Shown one piece after another: positions 10,902-60,494 of a stretch of DNA of 64,000 nucleotides; the first letter of the stretch is position 1, and each line of letters starts with the position of its first letter. The DNA lies in the NCBI GenBank assembly GCA_023665905.1, contig JAMPDA010000001.1, positions 1-64,000 on the forward strand. Reading direction: 5' to 3'. A program made the position numbers and the translations under genes. Origin of the DNA: Roseburia sp. Its GTDB lineage: Bacteria > Bacillota > Clostridia > Christensenellales > Pumilibacteraceae. The notes below the pieces were generated by a model. It was not told the origin of the DNA. It made no database searches and worked only from the letters and a program-made list of their open reading frames with translations.

Positions 10902-13106
10902 ATGGCAAGTTTGTCTTTGAAACACATTTACAAGGTGTACTCGGGCGGTGTTCGCGCCGTCAGCGATTTCAACCTCGAGATCGACGATAAAGAGTTTATC
11001 GTTTTCGTCGGTCCGTCCGGTTGCGGCAAGTCCACGACTCTGCGCATGATAGCCGGCTTGGAAGATATTTCGTCGGGCGAGCTTTATATCGACGACCGTT
11101 TGGTCAACGACGTAGAGCCCAAGGACCGCGACATAGCGATGGTTTTCCAGAACTACGCGCTTTATCCGCACATGACTGTTTACGACAACATGGCGTTCGG
11201 CTTGCGCCTGCGCCACGTTCCGGCTCAGGAAATAGACGAAAAAGTACAGGAGGCGGCGAGCATACTCGGTATTCAGCACCTTTTGAGCCGCAGACCGAAG
11301 GCGCTTTCCGGCGGTCAGCGTCAGCGCGTCGCGCTCGGCAGAGCTATCGTCCGCGAGCCTAAGGTCTTCCTTTTGGACGAGCCGCTCAGTAACCTCGATG
11401 CAAAACTGCGCGTTCAGATGCGCACGGAAATAACAAAGATCCACCACCGTTTGGCGACGACGTTTATCTACGTCACGCACGACCAGACCGAGGCTATGAC
11501 CATGGGTACGCGTATCGTCGTTATGAAGGACGGTATCGTGCAACAGGTCGATACGCCGACTACGCTTTACGACAACCCCGCAAACCTGTTTGTCGCGTGC
11601 TTCCTCGGTTCGCCGCAAATGAACATATTTAAGGCGAAGCTCGTCGAGGAAAACGGCGAACTGTACGCGCTTATAGGCGACACCAACAAGGTGCTTATAC
11701 CCAAGACGCGCGCAAAACGCATAATAGACAACAGTGTAATAGGCAAAGACGTTCTTTTGGGAATACGTCCCGAGGACGTGCATTACGAGCAGGCGCTCGT
11801 CGAATCTCATCCGGAGTGCGTAATCGACGCCACTATCGACGTTATAGAAAACCTCGGTAACGAAACCATATTGTACCTCAACGTAGACGGCAAAGAGGAC
11901 TACACTATATCGCGCGTCAATTCGCGCTTCTCGTTCGAGCAGGGCGAGCAGGTCAAGATGTATCTCGCCACCGATCACGCGCATCTGTTTGACCCGACGA
12001 CCGAGTTCACGCTCATGGGCGTTCCCGATTACAATCTCATTCCCGCGCAAGCTGTCGCAGTGGACGGCGGACTTGCCGTCATGTTCGGCGACACGCGCAT
12101 CGATCTTCCCGAGAGCGTCGTAAAACGCATAACCGACACTTCCATAGTAAACAACAACGTCGTGCTCGGTCTGCCGCCTCAAGCGCTCAAGGACGAAAAA
12201 ACAAACGACACCGACTGCGCCGTGGAAGGCGTTGCGGAGTTCTTCGACGACTATCCGCGCTTCAGAGCCGTGTATGCGACCGTTCCCGGCGTAGAGAACT
12301 ACGTTATCATGGCGCGTCCGCTCGGCATGCCGTTCTCCGGCGGCAAGCCCATCACGTCGTATGTGGACGTGGAAAAAATACAGATATTCAACACTGACGG
12401 CGAGCCGGTCATTGCCGATATGGATGTTACGTACAACGAAACGGTCGGCACGGCTATCGACAATCAAGGCGTGGTCAACTATAAGTTCGCAGCCGAAAAC
12501 GGCACGAAGAACAAGCTCGCTTTCGAGAACTTTACGGTCGAAACCGACGCAAGCGGCGCCAAAGAGCACAAAGTCCGCTTCGGCGACCTGTCGCTTTCGG
12601 AAACCGAATCGCCTATACACATCGCTTTGAACGGCTTTTCGATAGACAAGGACGTCGTGGTGAAGCAGCACAAGATGGTGCTCAGCGGCAATATCCTGCA
12701 TTTGGACGAGTATCGCAAGCATGCCGTAGTCACCGTGGAAGTCCCCGGCTTCAACGGAAACGTCACGGCGCTCATAAACAACTTCTTCGGATACAACGTC
12801 GGCGAAAAGATCAAGCTTGCCGTCGATCCGCACTCGATAGTTGTGGGCAAGTGCGAAACCGCAGCCGACGTAATAGCCAAAGCTCAGGAAGAAGGCAGCG
12901 TTCGCTATAAAGAACTCGTCGCTGCGCGCGAAAAAGAAAAGGAACTCGAGGCTGCCGCCAAAAACGCCAAAGCCAAGAAGGAACAGGCCGCTACCGTAGC
13001 TCCCCAGGCGAAAGAGGAAAAGCCCAAGGAAGCTAAAGCCGCCGCGCCCAAAAAGCCTGCGGCAAGAACGACTGCGGTAAAACGCCCTGTCGCTAAAAAG
13101 AAATAA
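10902..13106 (+). CDS. MalK/UgpC-type ABC ATPase with extra TOBE-like modules and a Lys/Ala/Pro tail
   Basis: A 734-residue ATPase, about twice the usual 370. Residues 1-240 form a classic CUT1 nucleotide-binding domain: GPSGCGKST, ALSGGQRQRVALGRA, FLLDEPLSNLDAKLR, YVTHDQTEAMTMG. The first TOBE/OB region (about 240-365) contains VLLGIRPEDVH. A second, similar segment follows with VVLGLPPQALK after a matching strand-helix pattern (KRITDTSIVNNN against KRIIDNSVIGKD). A third ends in VGEKIKLAVDPHSIVVG. The last 70 residues are Lys/Ala/Pro-rich like a histone-H1 tail. No permease or binding protein lies nearby, so it may energise several sugar importers like MsmK. It has its own strong promoter. 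Confidence 0.85.
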   Translation: MASLSLKHIYKVYSGGVRAVSDFNLEIDDKEFIVFVGPSGCGKSTTLRMIAGLEDISSGELYIDDRLVNDVEPKDRDIAMVFQNYALYPHMTVYDNMAFGLRLRHVPAQEIDEKVQEAASILGIQHLLSRRPKALSGGQRQRVALGRAIVREPKVFLLDEPLSNLDAKLRVQMRTEITKIHHRLATTFIYVTHDQTEAMTMGTRIVVMKDGIVQQVDTPTTLYDNPANLFVACFLGSPQMNIFKAKLVEENGELYALIGDTNKVLIPKTRAKRIIDNSVIGKDVLLGIRPEDVHYEQALVESHPECVIDATIDVIENLGNETILYLNVDGKEDYTISRVNSRFSFEQGEQVKMYLATDHAHLFDPTTEFTLMGVPDYNLIPAQAVAVDGGLAVMFGDTRIDLPESVVKRITDTSIVNNNVVLGLPPQALKDEKTNDTDCAVEGVAEFFDDYPRFRAVYATVPGVENYVIMARPLGMPFSGGKPITSYVDVEKIQIFNTDGEPVIADMDVTYNETVGTAIDNQGVVNYKFAAENGTKNKLAFENFTVETDASGAKEHKVRFGDLSLSETESPIHIALNGFSIDKDVVVKQHKMVLSGNILHLDEYRKHAVVTVEVPGFNGNVTALINNFFGYNVGEKIKLAVDPHSIVVGKCETAADVIAKAQEEGSVRYKELVAAREKEKELEAAAKNAKAKKEQAATVAPQAKEEKPKEAKAAAPKKPAARTTAVKRPVAKKK

Positions 13107-13246
13107 ATTAGGTATTATACCCCAGGGCAAGCCCTGGACCAGCACGCTTCGCGTGCAAGTGCCGCCGCAAGCGGCGGTGTATAAAACCTAATTTGTCGTC
13201 GTCGCAAATTTGCCCTTGCAAGCAAGCAAATTTGCTCCTCGAATAA
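13102..13246 (+). repeat. Structured repeat element, copy 1 (candidate RNA or mobile palindromic element)
   Basis: A second, diverged copy lies at 56502-56714. The element is bounded by AATAA on both sides (13102-13106 and 13242-13246), and the left AATAA contains the stop codon of the ATPase gene. A long closing stem pairs 13105-13120 with 13179-13194 (15 of 16). Inside are three hairpins: 13122-13137, 13142-13156 and 13162-13177. A fourth stem-loop at 13204-13235 has nine pairs, a 2-base bulge, five pairs and an AA tip. Most tips read GCAAGC. It ends with CCTCGAATAA. Confidence 0.8.
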
Positions 13247-54824: not shown

Positions 54825-55079
54825 ATGAGTTTTATCGATCAAGCGGCGGAATTATTCGGAAATATAGCGGAACTTAAATTTCAAGCCGTGCTGTTCGGGC
54901 GCGGCGCTTTGTATTTGGAGGGAGCAAAGCCGCTCAAGATCGACGGCGCGGAGATGATATTCCGCGCGCGCGGTTGCGTTATTACCGTAAGCGGCAGCGA
55001 GCTTTCCGTAAAAGACCTCACGGACGATTGCGTGTCGGTCATCGGCGTCATCGACGGTATTTCGGTGAAAGACCTATGA
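54825..55079 (+). CDS. yqfC: Sporulation protein YqfC
   Basis: An 84-residue YqfC protein, compact beta-rich, with AVLFGRGALYLEGAKPLKIDGAEMIFRARGCVITVSGSELSVKDL. In Bacillus it is made in the mother cell under sigma-E with YqfD. No Shine-Dalgarno sequence precedes the ATG. CATAAGAT at 54809-54816 could be a sigma-E-type or sigma-A -10, which would leave a leader of only a base or two. The stop overlaps the yqfD start (ATGA). Confidence 0.88.
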   Translation: MSFIDQAAELFGNIAELKFQAVLFGRGALYLEGAKPLKIDGAEMIFRARGCVITVSGSELSVKDLTDDCVSVIGVIDGISVKDL

Positions 55080-56506
55080 AAAAACGCGCCGCGGACATGC
55101 CCGAAAAACGCGCGCTTAAAGGCGCGGAAAATAAAGAGCGGGAAAAGCGCGACCGACTGCGCAAGGCGCAGGCGCGCGCCGAAGCCCGTGAAAAACGCCG
55201 GCGCATGCGTGCCGAAGCGGAAAAACTGCGTAAAACAAAGCGCGACGAAGCGGAAAAGGCGCGCAATGTAAGGCGTGCCGCGCGCGCGGTGTTTTTCGGC
55301 AAGATCAAGCGCAAACTCGGCAACAACGCGTGCGGCTTCGGCTATAGAAATCGCGGATTTATCCCACGTTTGGAGATCACCGTGCGCGACGACGCCACAT
55401 CAATCGTTTCAAGGCTTGCGGCGGAAGGAATAATCACCGAGGACCTGTCCGTTTCGGGCGGAAAAGCGACGTTTAAAATACGAAAAAAAGACAAGCGCAA
55501 AGCTGTTGCAATTTTCGGTGACATGTGCTATAATTACTCGATAGACGCAGAGTACGGAATAGGCAGGCTGTTCGCTTTTTTGGCGGCGCGTATCGGTCTT
55601 GCCGTCGGATTCGCCGCGTCTGTGGTTTGTCTGAACATTTCATACGGATATGTGTGGCGCATAGACATTTCCGGCAACGACAGGCTGTCCGATGCCGCAA
55701 TAGAAAGCGCGTTGCACGGCGCGGATATAAAAACCGGTATGCGCAAAAGCAGTGTCGATACGGACAGAGTCGCCGCCGCCGTCAACGGCATGGACGGGAT
55801 AGCCGACGCCGCGGCGGAGATCGTCGGAACGACGCTGCGAGTTTACGTGCTCGAGTCCGAGGACTTTTCGGTGCACGGAAAATATGCGGCGTATGAATCC
55901 GCATACGACGCGACCGTCACGCGCATCGTCTTGCGTGAGGGGTCGGCGCTCGTAAAGCGCGGCGACGTAGTAAAGCGCGGCGACGTTCTTGCCAACGGCG
56001 ATGTGTTTTCCACTGCCGGCGAGCTGCTTTACACCGCGGAATGCGACGCGGAGATCTACGGCGACGTGTCTTTGACGTTCAGTGCGGAAATATCCGCGAC
56101 CGCCGTCGAATATCGCCGTACGGGCCGCTCTAAGAAAAAGACGGGTTTCAGCCTTTTCGGACACCGGTTCCTGTACCCGAAGTCGCCGTACGATTCGTAT
56201 GAAAGCTCGGCGGTTACGGCAAACTATGACGTGTTCGTTCCGCTGTATGTGACGACGGTCAGCTATTACGAAACGGAAGCCGTGCAGGTCGAGCGCGATC
56301 TTGACGCCGTCGCTCGGGAGTTTGCCGCAGCCAAAACGGAAGAGGCGAAGTTCACGGGCGAATTCAAGTCCACGTATACGGTCAAAGAAACGGTTGCCGG
56401 ACTGTATTCGATACACGTATTTTTGAGCGGCGAAACATTGATATCGCGCGGTACGCAGATCCGCGAAAACGCAGAGCCGTCCGCCGACCGAAACGGGAAC
56501 GAATAA
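55076..56506 (+). CDS. yqfD: Sporulation protein YqfD with long charged N-terminal extension
   Basis: A 476-residue YqfD. Residues about 1-75 are an Arg/Lys/Glu/Ala-rich coiled coil not usual in the family. From about 80 the normal protein begins: NNACGFGYRNRGFIPRLEITVRD, then a helix at about 170-190 (FLAARIGLAVGFAASVVCLNISYG) and a large outside domain (YVWRIDISGNDRLSDAAIESAL onward). It is needed for a late sporulation step at the outer forespore membrane. ATG 55076 overlaps the yqfC stop. The stop TAA lies inside the AATAA border of the structured repeat. Confidence 0.88.
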   Translation: MKKRAADMPEKRALKGAENKEREKRDRLRKAQARAEAREKRRRMRAEAEKLRKTKRDEAEKARNVRRAARAVFFGKIKRKLGNNACGFGYRNRGFIPRLEITVRDDATSIVSRLAAEGIITEDLSVSGGKATFKIRKKDKRKAVAIFGDMCYNYSIDAEYGIGRLFAFLAARIGLAVGFAASVVCLNISYGYVWRIDISGNDRLSDAAIESALHGADIKTGMRKSSVDTDRVAAAVNGMDGIADAAAEIVGTTLRVYVLESEDFSVHGKYAAYESAYDATVTRIVLREGSALVKRGDVVKRGDVLANGDVFSTAGELLYTAECDAEIYGDVSLTFSAEISATAVEYRRTGRSKKKTGFSLFGHRFLYPKSPYDSYESSAVTANYDVFVPLYVTTVSYYETEAVQVERDLDAVAREFAAAKTEEAKFTGEFKSTYTVKETVAGLYSIHVFLSGETLISRGTQIRENAEPSADRNGNE

Positions 56507-56714
56507 ATTAGGTATTATACCCCAGGGTAAGCTCTGGACCCGCACGGCAACCGAATGTTGCACGAAACATCGCTTACGTTCTCGCTTGTAATTGTGCGTA
56601 TGCTTGCCCTGGAGCACCCTACGGGTGTTCCGCCGCAAGCGGCGGGGTATTACACCAAATTTGTCGACGTCACATTTTTGCTCCCGCAAGCGGGCAAAAA
56701 TGTTCCTCGAATAA
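56502..56714 (+). repeat. Structured repeat element, copy 2
   Basis: Second copy of the 13102-13246 element, same orientation, directly on the yqfD stop codon. Borders are AATAA (56502-56506) and CCTCGAATAA (56705-56714). The closing stem pairs 56505-56520 with 56647-56662 (13 of 16). Shared hairpins are 56522-56537 (with two G-U pairs) and 56630-56645. The last stem-loop 56672-56703 has the same nine pairs, 2-base bulge, five pairs and AA tip as copy 1. About 70 extra bases lie after the first hairpin, including a GGAGCACCC/GGGTGTTCC stem. Confidence 0.8.
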
Positions 56715-56754: not shown

Positions 56755-57717
56755 TTGATAAAGGGATCTCAAGACGATAATTTGCGCGCCGTGTTCGGCG
56801 TGTACGACGCCAATTTGAAGATAGTGGAGGCGTTGTGCGGCGTAACCGTGCGAATAACCGACGGCGGGTTGGAAATTTCTGGACGCGACGCCGAGATGGC
56901 GCGGCTTATTTTGGACAAGCTGTCGTCCGCGGCCGACCGCGGCGAAAAAATAGACCCCGATACGGTGCGGCGTTATCACTCCATTCTTTCTGCCGACCCC
57001 GCAGGTGTGGACGGCATGACGAAAGAACCTATATGCACCAATGCGCACGGACAGAGGATCTATGCCAAAACTCCGCACCAAAAGCTGTTTGCGGACGCCG
57101 TGGCAAACAATTTGCTCACATTCGCGATCGGTCCTGCCGGAACGGGCAAAACATATCTTGCGGTAGCCATGGCGGCGGCAGCCGTCAAAAAGGGCGTTGC
57201 GGACAGGATAATATTGACGCGACCCGCCATAGAAGCCGGCGAAAAGCTCGGCTTTCTGCCCGGCGACCTTCAAATGAAAGTCGATCCGTACTTAAGACCG
57301 CTTTACGACGCGTTGGGCGATATGTTCGGCGCGGATTACACAAAGCTTATCGAGCGCGGAACTGTTGAGATAGCGCCGCTTGCGTATATGCGCGGCAGAA
57401 CGCTCAACAACGCATTCATGATACTCGACGAGGCGCAGAACACGACGCCCGAGCAAATGAAGATGTTTTTGACGAGGTTCGGCGAGGGCAGCCGCGCTAT
57501 AGTCACCGGCGATGTGACGCAGATCGATCTAAAGGGCGCGCCGTCCGGACTTATAGACGCCGAAAATGTGCTAAAGGGTGTGGAATCGGTCGCGTTTGTG
57601 CATTTGGGCGACGAGGATGTCGTAAGACACGGACTTGTTATGCGCATAGTAAAAGCGTACGGCGAATATTCGCAAAGGAGAAATCATGGGAAATCAATCG
57701 GAACAGACGAAGAGTAA
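56755..57717 (+). CDS. PhoH family protein
   Basis: A 320-residue PhoH/YbeZ ATPase. Walker A is GPAGTGKTYLAVAMA and Walker B is FMILDEAQNTTPEQM, with SRAIVTGDVTQIDL as the sensor. Residues 1-100 form a KH-like start. PhoH proteins act with YbeY in RNA metabolism and are encoded before pgpH and ybeY in Bacillota, as here. The start is TTG 56755 behind ACGGAG. Its end overlaps pgpH by 32 bases. Confidence 0.93.
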   Translation: MIKGSQDDNLRAVFGVYDANLKIVEALCGVTVRITDGGLEISGRDAEMARLILDKLSSAADRGEKIDPDTVRRYHSILSADPAGVDGMTKEPICTNAHGQRIYAKTPHQKLFADAVANNLLTFAIGPAGTGKTYLAVAMAAAAVKKGVADRIILTRPAIEAGEKLGFLPGDLQMKVDPYLRPLYDALGDMFGADYTKLIERGTVEIAPLAYMRGRTLNNAFMILDEAQNTTPEQMKMFLTRFGEGSRAIVTGDVTQIDLKGAPSGLIDAENVLKGVESVAFVHLGDEDVVRHGLVMRIVKAYGEYSQRRNHGKSIGTDEE

Positions 57718-59167
57718 TATAACCCCGATAATGCCGCAACGGTCGGCGTACATTTGGCTCATCGGCATGTTTGCCGTAGTATTTGCCGTGCTGTACATAG
57801 CTCTCGTGCTGTTCGTAAATTTTTCGCATATCGAAAACGGTATACTGTCCATAAGTAAGCGCGGAGCCATAGTTCTGTACTTGTTCGTATTGCTGTTCGT
57901 GCTCGTGGCGTTGTACATGTACATGGCGATCTCGCGCAAAGAATTGCTGTTCAACTTTAAGCGCGCCGGCGCGCTGCTGACTGTATTTTCGTTTGTGGTC
58001 CTTGTCAATATCGGGCTCATTGCCTGGAAGCCTTACGCCATGACGGTGGCGCTTACGGCAATGCTCGTCATGCCGTTTTCGAAAAAGCGCGACGCTTTTA
58101 TACTCAACGCGTTTGCGTGCATGATCTCGTCGTTCGTGATCTTGCTCGTGGTGGACAGCGCGTCGTTTACTGCGGTCGTATTCACAATACTCGCAGGGCT
58201 TTTGAGCGGCGCGGTTGGCACATATACTTTTCCCACCAATATGACGCGCATAGTTTCCGTACTGCGCATGTTCGTGACGGGCATATCCACTATAGCGATA
58301 TACGCCGCGCTGCTTTGCGCATACTCGTTGGATATACAGCCGTTTGTCGATCAACTGCCGTATATCGCAGGCTCAGCATGCGGCGCGATAGTGCTTTCCG
58401 GCGTTATCATTCCCGTCGTCGAGTGGGTGTTCAACCTGACGTCCGATTTTAAACTTATCGAGCTTACAAACCACAAAGCTCCGCTCATTCGCAGGCTGAG
58501 CGAGGAAGCGCCGGGGACGTTCAATCACTGCCTCGCCGTCGCGAACTTCGCCGAGATATGCGCCGACGCGATAGGCGAAGACCCGTATCTTGCGCGCGCC
58601 TGCGCTTACTATCACGATGTCGGCAAGCTGAACAACGCCGAGTATTTTACGGAAAACCAAGCCGGTTACAATCCGCATGACGAGATACTTCCCGAAGTAT
58701 CCGCCGAGATAATTCGCAAGCATACCGTAGACGGCTACGAGCTGTGCAAAAAGCACCGTATCCCGGAGGAAGTCGCGCGCATAACCATAGAACATCACGG
58801 CACACTGCCGATAGCGTACTTTTACAATAAAGCGAGCATGCTCACCGACGGCGAAGTCGATATGAGCGACTACCGTTATCGCGGAGAAACGCCTACGGGC
58901 AAGATCGGCGCGATAATCATGATCTGCGATTCGGCGGAGGCCGCCATTCGCGCCATGGACAATCCTACGGGCGACAAAGTGGACAAGCTGTTGCGCTCTA
59001 TGATCTCGGAACGGCTTAAGCTCGGTCAGTTCGACAACTGCAATATCACGATGAAAGAGCTGACCGCGGTGCGGCTCGCAATAGTCGGCGCGTACGGCGG
59101 ACTTTTCCACAAGCGCATAAAGTACAACTTCGGACGCGGCGGCGGAATGGGCGGCGCAAATGTTTAG
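57686..59167 (+). CDS. pgpH: PgpH-type HD phosphodiesterase lacking the 7TMR-HDED sensor domain
   Basis: A 493-residue protein, while PgpH is about 700. The N-terminus goes straight into seven or so helices (about 20-250) with no extracellular HDED domain. The HD catalytic part is intact: PGTFNHCLAVANFAE, YYHDVGKLNN, KHTVDGYELCKK, IEHHGTLPIAYFY and MICDSAEAAIRAM. It hydrolyses c-di-AMP to pApA and opposes CdaA at 48734. AAAGGAG lies inside the end of phoH before ATG 57686. The missing domain is a real gap because the start is well marked and the upstream frame is phoH. Confidence 0.9.
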   Translation: MGNQSEQTKSNITPIMPQRSAYIWLIGMFAVVFAVLYIALVLFVNFSHIENGILSISKRGAIVLYLFVLLFVLVALYMYMAISRKELLFNFKRAGALLTVFSFVVLVNIGLIAWKPYAMTVALTAMLVMPFSKKRDAFILNAFACMISSFVILLVVDSASFTAVVFTILAGLLSGAVGTYTFPTNMTRIVSVLRMFVTGISTIAIYAALLCAYSLDIQPFVDQLPYIAGSACGAIVLSGVIIPVVEWVFNLTSDFKLIELTNHKAPLIRRLSEEAPGTFNHCLAVANFAEICADAIGEDPYLARACAYYHDVGKLNNAEYFTENQAGYNPHDEILPEVSAEIIRKHTVDGYELCKKHRIPEEVARITIEHHGTLPIAYFYNKASMLTDGEVDMSDYRYRGETPTGKIGAIIMICDSAEAAIRAMDNPTGDKVDKLLRSMISERLKLGQFDNCNITMKELTAVRLAIVGAYGGLFHKRIKYNFGRGGGMGGANV

Positions 59168-60494
59168 GATAACGGGCGACGTACAGCCGGCGTTCAATAG
59201 GCTTGCCGGAATAATTTTCGATACTTTGAAGCTGAAGGGCGATGCGTCGGTGGACGTCGAGTTGATAGGCGACGACGAGATGCGCGCTCTCAATCGCGAA
59301 AAGCGCGGCATAGATAGTACGACGGACGTGTTGAGTTTTCCGGCTCTGACAAAGATCGAGGCGTTTGACAAAAAGAATTATCCGAACGACTATGACCCTG
59401 TGCTGCGCGCCGTTGCGCTCGGCGAGATAGCCATAAACACAGACGCGGCGGCGCGTCAGGCGGTCGAATACGGAACAGGCGAACGCGAGATAAACTATCT
59501 TTTCGTGCACGGCATGCTTCATTTACTCGGTTACGATCACATCGCCGACGCCGATAAGGCCGCCATGCGCGAGATCGAAGAAAAAGTGCTCGCCGCGCGC
59601 GACAAATCGGTTGTCATCGCCGTCGTGGGCAGACCGAACGCCGGCAAAAGCTCGCTCGTAAACGCCATAGTCGGCGAAAAGGTGTCGATAGTTTCTCCCA
59701 AGCCGCAGACGACGCGCGACAGGATAACGGGGATTTGCACCGAAGGCAATACGCAGATAGTGTTTTTGGACACGCCCGGCATGTTCAAGCCGCGTACAAA
59801 GCTCGACGAGCATATGGACAAGAGCGTAAAAAGCTCGCTCGGCGGCGACGCCGATGTCGTCGTCATCGTGCTCGATTGCACCAAAGGGCTTACGGAAGCG
59901 GACGAAAAGCTGATCTTGGAACGCTTAAAGACGCGCGTGCCGCTGTACGTAGTGCTCAACAAGACCGACTTAAAGGGATATAACGACATCTATCCGATCT
60001 TGCAACGGCTCAATCCGTACATGACGCGCGGCGACGGGCAGTCGATAAAAGACGTCATTCCCACGAGCTGTAGAACGGGCAGCAATATAGATGTCGTAAA
60101 GTCCGCGCTCAAAGCGGAGTGCAAGGACGGCGGCTTTCTTTTTCCCGAAGACGAGTACACGGACAGACCGGTCAAGTTCATTATTGGCGAGATAATTCGC
60201 GAAAAAGCGCTTTTGTTTTTGCAGGACGAAATACCGCACGGCGTCGGCGTCGGAGTGTTGAGCGTCGATGAGAGCAAAACGCCCGTGCATATATCGGCGG
60301 ACGTCATTGTGGATAAAAAATCTCACAAGCGCATAGCGATAGGCGACGAGGGCGCCATGATCAAAAAGATCGGTGCGTCGGCGCGAAACGACATAGAACA
60401 TCTGCTCGATAAAAAGGTGTATTTAGAGCTGTTCGTCAAGGTCAGAACGGGCTGGCGCGATAAACAGAACATTCTTCACGATATGGGATATTGA
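59160..60494 (+). CDS. YbeY endoribonuclease-Era GTPase fusion
   Basis: One frame of 444 residues. Residues 1-145 are YbeY: ALGEIAIN, and zinc ligands H117, H121, H127 (HGMLHLLGYDH). Residues 150-444 are Era: GRPNAGKSS at 157-165, DTPG at 204-207, NKTD at 267-270, and a C-terminal KH domain with GDEG at 395-398. There is almost no linker, the last YbeY helix runs into the first Era strand, and no stop or frameshift separates them. YbeY matures 16S rRNA and Era chaperones its 3' end, so fusion joins two known partners. It overlaps pgpH by eight bases. An internal GTG at about residue 143 lacks a clear ribosome site. Confidence 0.93.
   Translation: MFRITGDVQPAFNRLAGIIFDTLKLKGDASVDVELIGDDEMRALNREKRGIDSTTDVLSFPALTKIEAFDKKNYPNDYDPVLRAVALGEIAINTDAAARQAVEYGTGEREINYLFVHGMLHLLGYDHIADADKAAMREIEEKVLAARDKSVVIAVVGRPNAGKSSLVNAIVGEKVSIVSPKPQTTRDRITGICTEGNTQIVFLDTPGMFKPRTKLDEHMDKSVKSSLGGDADVVVIVLDCTKGLTEADEKLILERLKTRVPLYVVLNKTDLKGYNDIYPILQRLNPYMTRGDGQSIKDVIPTSCRTGSNIDVVKSALKAECKDGGFLFPEDEYTDRPVKFIIGEIIREKALLFLQDEIPHGVGVGVLSVDESKTPVHISADVIVDKKSHKRIAIGDEGAMIKKIGASARNDIEHLLDKKVYLELFVKVRTGWRDKQNILHDMGY

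Follow-up and report, generated by a model that had tools for sequence, protein, structure and literature searches.

A folded repeat between yqfD and phoH is a non-autonomous mobile DNA element

We have analyzed a folded intergenic repeat in a stretch of DNA of 64,000 nucleotides, referred to here as the window. Two copies are present, a short form (copy 1) and a long form (copy 2), and the features of the latter and of its neighbours are collected in Table 1. The initial annotation had placed copy 2 at 56502-56714. The element is indeed there, although its edges had been set too wide, by three flanking bases on the left and two on the right. Copy 2 is matched by the covariance model of the family with 130.6 bits (E 1.3e-30). 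Copy 1 is a strong match as well. The remaining covariance-model matches in the window are weaker, lie on the opposite strand and overlap copies 1 and 2, and nothing further was found there. The yqfD stop codon begins with the T of the triplet on the left flank of copy 2. Elsewhere in the window, at 59160-60494, YbeY and an Era-like GTPase with a KH domain are read in one 444-aa frame, which is either a gene fusion or a frame artefact.

Table 1. Position and composition of the two copies of the element and of the genes beside copy 2.
Feature	Position	Strand	Basis or remark
Copy 1, short form, 140 nt	13105..13244	+	Stop-codon insertion as well (AAAT/AA); strong covariance-model match
ORF with YqfD domain, upstream	54974..56506	+	PF06898, E 1.9e-46; stop codon made at the junction
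Target-like AAT, left flank; host-site sequence, not element	56502..56504	+	
Mobile element, long form (copy 2), 208 nt	56505..56712	+	Boundaries set by alignment of 114 copies and by empty sites seen for other copies
Closing stem A, 5' arm AAATTAGGTATTATACC	56505..56521	+	Its leading AA completes the yqfD stop TAA
Local hairpin 1, CCAGGGT AA GCTCTGG, with both G-U pairs	56522..56537	+	Sequence; predicted not to form in copy 2
Additional long-form module, including GGCAACCGAATGTTGC	56538..56601	+	Alignment
GCTTGCCCTGG, distal pairing partner of CCAGGGTAAGC	56602..56612	+	Predicted fold
Hairpin 2, AGCACCC TAC GGGTGTT	56613..56629	+	Predicted fold, genus-wide alignment
Hairpin 3, CCGCCGC AA GCGGCGG	56630..56645	+	Predicted fold, genus-wide alignment
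Closing stem A, 3' arm GGTATTACACCAAATTT	56646..56662	+	Predicted fold, genus-wide alignment
Linker GTCGACGTC, consensus GTCGTCGTC, ending in the CGTC tag	56663..56671	+	Copy alignments
Hairpin 4: 10 bp, 2-nt bulge on 5' side, 4 bp, AA tip	56672..56703	+	
Right tail TCCTCGAAT	56704..56712	+	Its GAAT is a copy of the target motif carried by the element
phoH, downstream	56755..57717	+	PF02562, E 6.2e-88

Comparison of the two copies bears out most of what had been described for them. The last hairpin reads GCAAATTTGC CC TTGC AA GCAA GCAAATTTGC in copy 1 and ACATTTTTGC TC CCGC AA GCGG GCAAAAATGT in copy 2, so that five pairs are changed on both sides, as had been reported: one G-C to A-T, two A-T to T-A and two T-A to C-G. 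These paired changes are recurring subfamily alleles, found in several species in differing combinations, and not five independent events. The bulge and the AA tip stand, whereas the layout of 9 and 5 pairs is better read as 10 pairs, a 2-nt bulge and 4 pairs, a division that depends on the register chosen. The extra stretch inside copy 2 is about 68-70 nt, in agreement with the earlier estimate, and the module that it carries occurs in this genome's long subfamily. The two C-to-T changes on which the G-U and U-G pairs of hairpin 1 were based are present in copy 2; the hairpin itself is predicted not to form (P = 6e-5), because in the minimum-free-energy fold its 5' arm CCAGGGTAAGC pairs with the distal GCTTGCCCTGG. 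Folded as RNA, copy 2 has a z score of -6.5, with 0 of 200 shuffles equally stable.

The repeat belongs to a large family. When its own genome of 1.8 Mb was searched, 61 local matches were obtained; the best of the other copies is 98% identical over 215 nt, and the genome contains copies that are 95-98% identical. A right-end pattern found about 48 ends in the same genome; the reversed control pattern found none. With the covariance model, copies were detected in 19 of 20 genomes of the genus (18 of 19 congeners plus this genome), as compared with 3 of 150 genomes drawn evenly from the rest of the order, two of these three matches being weak. Matches that carry organism titles are to uncultured Clostridia or Clostridiales MAGs. 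Searches of phage, plasmid and viral collections returned no copy, and in Rfam no match exceeded a gathering score and nothing relevant appeared at E <= 0.5. The family appears to be confined almost wholly to one genus of uncultured Clostridia. Its members come in forms of 69-73 nt, 132-149 nt and 207-344 nt, the last with extra modules. The smallest form consists of the closing stem, the linker GTCGTCGTC, the bulged hairpin 4 and the tail TCCTCGAAT, and is devoid of hairpins 1-3.

The flanks of 24 copies were joined and searched for in six sister species. Among the loci fetched, an alignable empty site was obtained for 14 of the 24. In 11 of these 14, taking AAATTAGG...GAAT out of the filled site yields the empty site to the exact base, save for scattered substitutions; the remaining three have indels or substitutions nearby. 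These base-resolution empty sites come from copies other than the two in the window. One copy (L131) is absent from five genomes (G005, G007, G009, G013 and G015), which sets the polarity of the event as insertion. Empty sites were also found for the 72-73-nt copies L181 and L173, so that these small forms too are insertions. The folded stretch is a mobile non-autonomous DNA element, and 72-73 nt of it suffice for insertion.

The triplet to the left of the element was AAT in 83 of 114 copies, TAT in 13 and AGT in 6; the target is (A/T/G)AT on one strand, with a weak bias at position -4. For copies with an empty site in a sister species, the same left triplet is already present in the empty allele. 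The right end is AAT in 95 of the 114 copies whatever the left triplet, and the two triplets differ in 45. At one locus (L129) the target is ATAT in filled and empty alleles alike while the right end remains GAAT. Since the two triplets vary independently, and given this locus, the target is the triplet on the left, and GAAT at the right end is part of the element; duplication of an AAT target is ruled out by the same independence. Insertion is seamless: it takes place on one strand, directly 3' of (A/T/G)AT, with neither duplication nor deletion of the target site. A classical MITE of a DDE transposon would share the small size, dispersal, non-coding character and high copy number of the element, yet it would be expected to have the terminal inverted repeats and target-site duplication that are missing here; contradicted by the empty sites, this origin is scarcely credible.

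Stop codons are among the targets. Of the copies that split a stop codon and whose right end is defined, 15 of 15 have a right flank that restores the T/AA or T/AG of the target (the slash marks the junction), versus 61 of 98 elsewhere; insertion thus splits T/AA, and the AA of the element re-supplies the stop. The phoH locus of 17 congeners is without the element, and in G001 the yqfD stop codon is likewise occupied, by a copy that is different and diverged. The tuf stop codons of this genome and of G007, G013 and G015 were hit separately, and another copy (L192) sits exactly behind another CTCGAAT. A sigma70-like -10 box immediately precedes eleven of the 114 copies, an excess in a post hoc test over the background of 2.9% (p = 6e-4) and over the local background of 4.1% (p = 0.015). 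Relative to the gene on the left, 47 copies are in sense and 55 in antisense orientation (p = 0.49, based on crude ORF calls). Two copies, L187 (G009) and L165 (G007), are inserted between a promoter -10 box and an apparent tRNA gene, so that the element would become the 5' leader of the precursor tRNA.

The initial annotation had held that the structure is maintained, and the genus-wide copies agree. In a MAFFT alignment of 25 diverse copies, 90.5% of cells at paired positions are standard pairs, versus 82.3% in shuffles, and 25 of 48 pairs are changed on both sides. The covariation score is 0.252 versus 0.118 in shuffles, with 0 of 500 shuffles as high, counts that are not to be read as probabilities since the aligned copies are kin; it drops to 0.10 or less when the partner is slid. 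Among 67 non-redundant copies from the whole genus, aligned by fitting to the covariance model and to that extent biased towards it, all helices have pairs with at least two Watson-Crick types, the closing stem included, whose arms in full-length copies are separated by tens of nucleotides to more than 100 nt. In all 80 copies that fit the hairpin pattern, hairpin 4 has a bulge of 2 nt, and CGTC stands unpaired directly 5' of this hairpin in most copies.

That this structure acts as RNA had been argued from its tolerance of G-U pairs, and this part of the earlier argument finds no support. At paired columns there are 69 G.T cells versus 97 A.C cells (68 versus 73 after dropping one column); with no excess of G.T over A.C, there is therefore nothing in the G-U pairs to favour RNA. 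A structured RNA, such as a UTR element or small RNA selected for its function and perhaps spread secondarily, would account for the strong fold and the genus-wide paired changes. The window copy, lying between co-oriented genes, would be transcribed, and the copies behind -10 boxes point in the same direction. We nevertheless consider this reading quite improbable, as it is opposed by the G.T and A.C counts, the random orientation to genes, the copies of 72-73 nt without hairpins 1-3, the polymorphism of the insertion among sister species and the lack of an Rfam match at gathering score. The element being mobile DNA, the paired changes are explained without any RNA function by constraint from its own transposition or by templated correction of palindromes. 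Template switching at replication might even correct palindromes with the fold itself unselected; the changes do come in blocks in the short-loop hairpins, and G.T and A.C are about balanced. This alone is an unlikely cause, for the closing stem with its distant arms is also rewritten in pairs (L187, L167, L128) and the bulge stays constant. Most likely the conserved hairpins serve the mobility of the element itself and not a task of the host's RNA.

We compared the element with known families of mobile repeats. Non-autonomous elements of the IS200/IS605 type (PATEs) insert without target-site duplication (PMC7290912). The present element does so too, and resembles them further in having no terminal inverted repeats (its ends are AAATTAGG... 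and ...TCCTCGAAT), in strand-specific insertion 3' of a short motif that is repeated at the right end, and in having no ORF. It differs from PATEs in that no TnpA or TnpB partner with its ends was found in the genus, in a target of about 3 nt, in elaborate optional hairpins and in a size down to 72 nt. On two points the likeness is partial. PATEs insert 3' of a specific tetra- or pentanucleotide, and here a triplet is conserved with a weak bias at position -4; PATEs have an imperfect hairpin near each end, and here there are hairpins near the ends, the right one bulged, but the left stem is flush with the end. REPs and REPINs, with their RAYT (TnpA-REP) protein, are likewise intergenic and high-copy, with a bulged hairpin and a tetranucleotide tag on its 5' side. 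Neither a RAYT gene nor the GTAG tag was found when looked for in this genome, the tag here being a different one, and the element is larger, with a second stem and precise ends. RUP/BOX, ERIC and bcr are also short structured interspersed repeats of bacteria; the ones known to move differ from the element in their inverted ends and in duplicating their targets. CGTC directly precedes the hairpin in most copies of the element, as in the CGTC-tagged palindromic repeats. Those units measure 20-40 bp and have stems of 8-9 bp, loops of 4-5 nt and, for the most part, CCA tails; they are reported from five phyla that do not include Firmicutes, and are described as having no dedicated transposase (Di Nocera et al. 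2013, PMC3733652). The element does not fit them in the length of its stem, the size of its unit or its tail, and the common 4-mer may be a chance resemblance of sequence. Two other candidates were rejected: domain V of group II introns, which hairpin 4 recalls in its 10 + 2 + 4 plan, since the bulge is on the 5' side and no domain VI-like end is present, and an IS110 bridge-RNA element, since the flanks have just three bases in common.

Taken together, the element is probably a non-autonomous member of a largely genus-specific family that moves by single-strand transposition of the IS200/IS605 or REP kind with an enzyme supplied in trans, and the paired changes, as part of the same judgement, would reflect constraint on, or templated correction of, a DNA fold and not a host RNA function. 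One strand would fold into stem A, with hairpins 1-3 as optional additions on top, followed by the linker, the bulged hairpin and the tail. Transposition would act on this folded single strand; the bulged hairpin may be the part recognised by protein and the linker a guide by which the two AAT cleavage sites are positioned. Such a mechanism appears to be the best supported, and we do not claim membership of IS200/IS605 or REP families because no partner transposase with these ends was present in the genomes searched. Some features count against the model. The left hairpin of known IS200/IS605 elements is set inwards from the cleavage site by some distance, whereas stem A begins at the very end of the element, and the target is only three bases. 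The balance of G.T and A.C indicates preference for neither strand, where a single-strand mechanism might leave an asymmetry.

The search for the mobilising enzyme bears on the same point. Y1_Tnp gave only a stray 11.6-bit match, below cut-off, in this genome, and exceeded the cut-off in 2 of 15 congeners searched (G010 and G014), in both of which the flanks of the Y1 gene are unrelated to the ends of the element. TnpB was found in 0 of 20 genomes. Reverse transcriptase is present in 3 of 20, this genome included, and absent from most hosts of the family; the two ORFs in this genome (G000:C5:3248 and C5:41723; L281, L284) have identical scores and 431 aa each. Right ends with no left end nearby were inspected, and had ordinary genes upstream and no autonomous partner. 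These genomes are metagenome assemblies, in which absence is weak evidence for multi-copy or episomal genes, though it is consistent across the genus; enzymes may sit on unbinned replicons or have been lost after a burst. A variant of the model that differs only in the enzyme would invoke another HUH protein, a recombinase of folded strands or an RNA intermediate. In favour of this variant, the family looks active in genomes that lack Y1 transposase and TnpB and in most cases reverse transcriptase too, the target is only 3 nt long and the stem is flush with the left end; set against the scarcity of reverse transcriptase and the weakness of absence from such assemblies, the variant is a possibility of some substance, if the less likely one.

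Several related or modified elements were seen. In a second family of like layout the linker is AATACGGC or CATACGGC, the hairpin has a GCAA tip, and the tail, TTGTATTAT or TTGTATGG, is complementary to the linker and varies in step with it. This family occurs in G016 (L200, L261, L271), G017 (L265) and G005 (L268), often in tandem; three copies of this genome (L018, L189, L191) carry it nested within their stem A. A module of roughly 125 nt, GGCAGCCAAATGCTGCGCGAC...CAATCTGTGATTG, substitutes for the 5' arm of hairpin 4 in L133, L172, L205, L245, L246, L190, L196-L198, L008, L012 and L015-L018, and a similar module sits in the hairpin-1 loop of the long form. Copies of 89/85 nt (L183, L184 and L185 in G014, L162 in G001) lie within an outer inverted repeat, GGTGTTTGCG/CGCAAACACC. 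Its two arms show paired changes, which would fit either the addition of a third stem or a terminator loop as the target. Diverged elements of the same layout are found in other families or genera of the order (L250/L260 in G144, L251 in G131, L252 in G056); one of these ends in TTTTTGAAT and one in TTGTACAAT.

A broader and rather speculative reading is that a family of folded elements without an enzyme of their own inserts as a single strand by AAT, at stop codons and at promoter -10 boxes, through an enzyme that is neither Y1 nor TnpB-associated and possibly also moves the orphan CGTC palindromes. If the mobiliser were not a Y1 transposase, the question would arise of what moves orphan palindromic repeats in bacteria. 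The family also offers a caution, in that covarying positions and G-U pairs do not suffice to show that a genomic repeat functions as RNA. The seamless empty sites, resolved to the base, give an unusually clear view of the insertion of a structured repeat that apparently has no helper.
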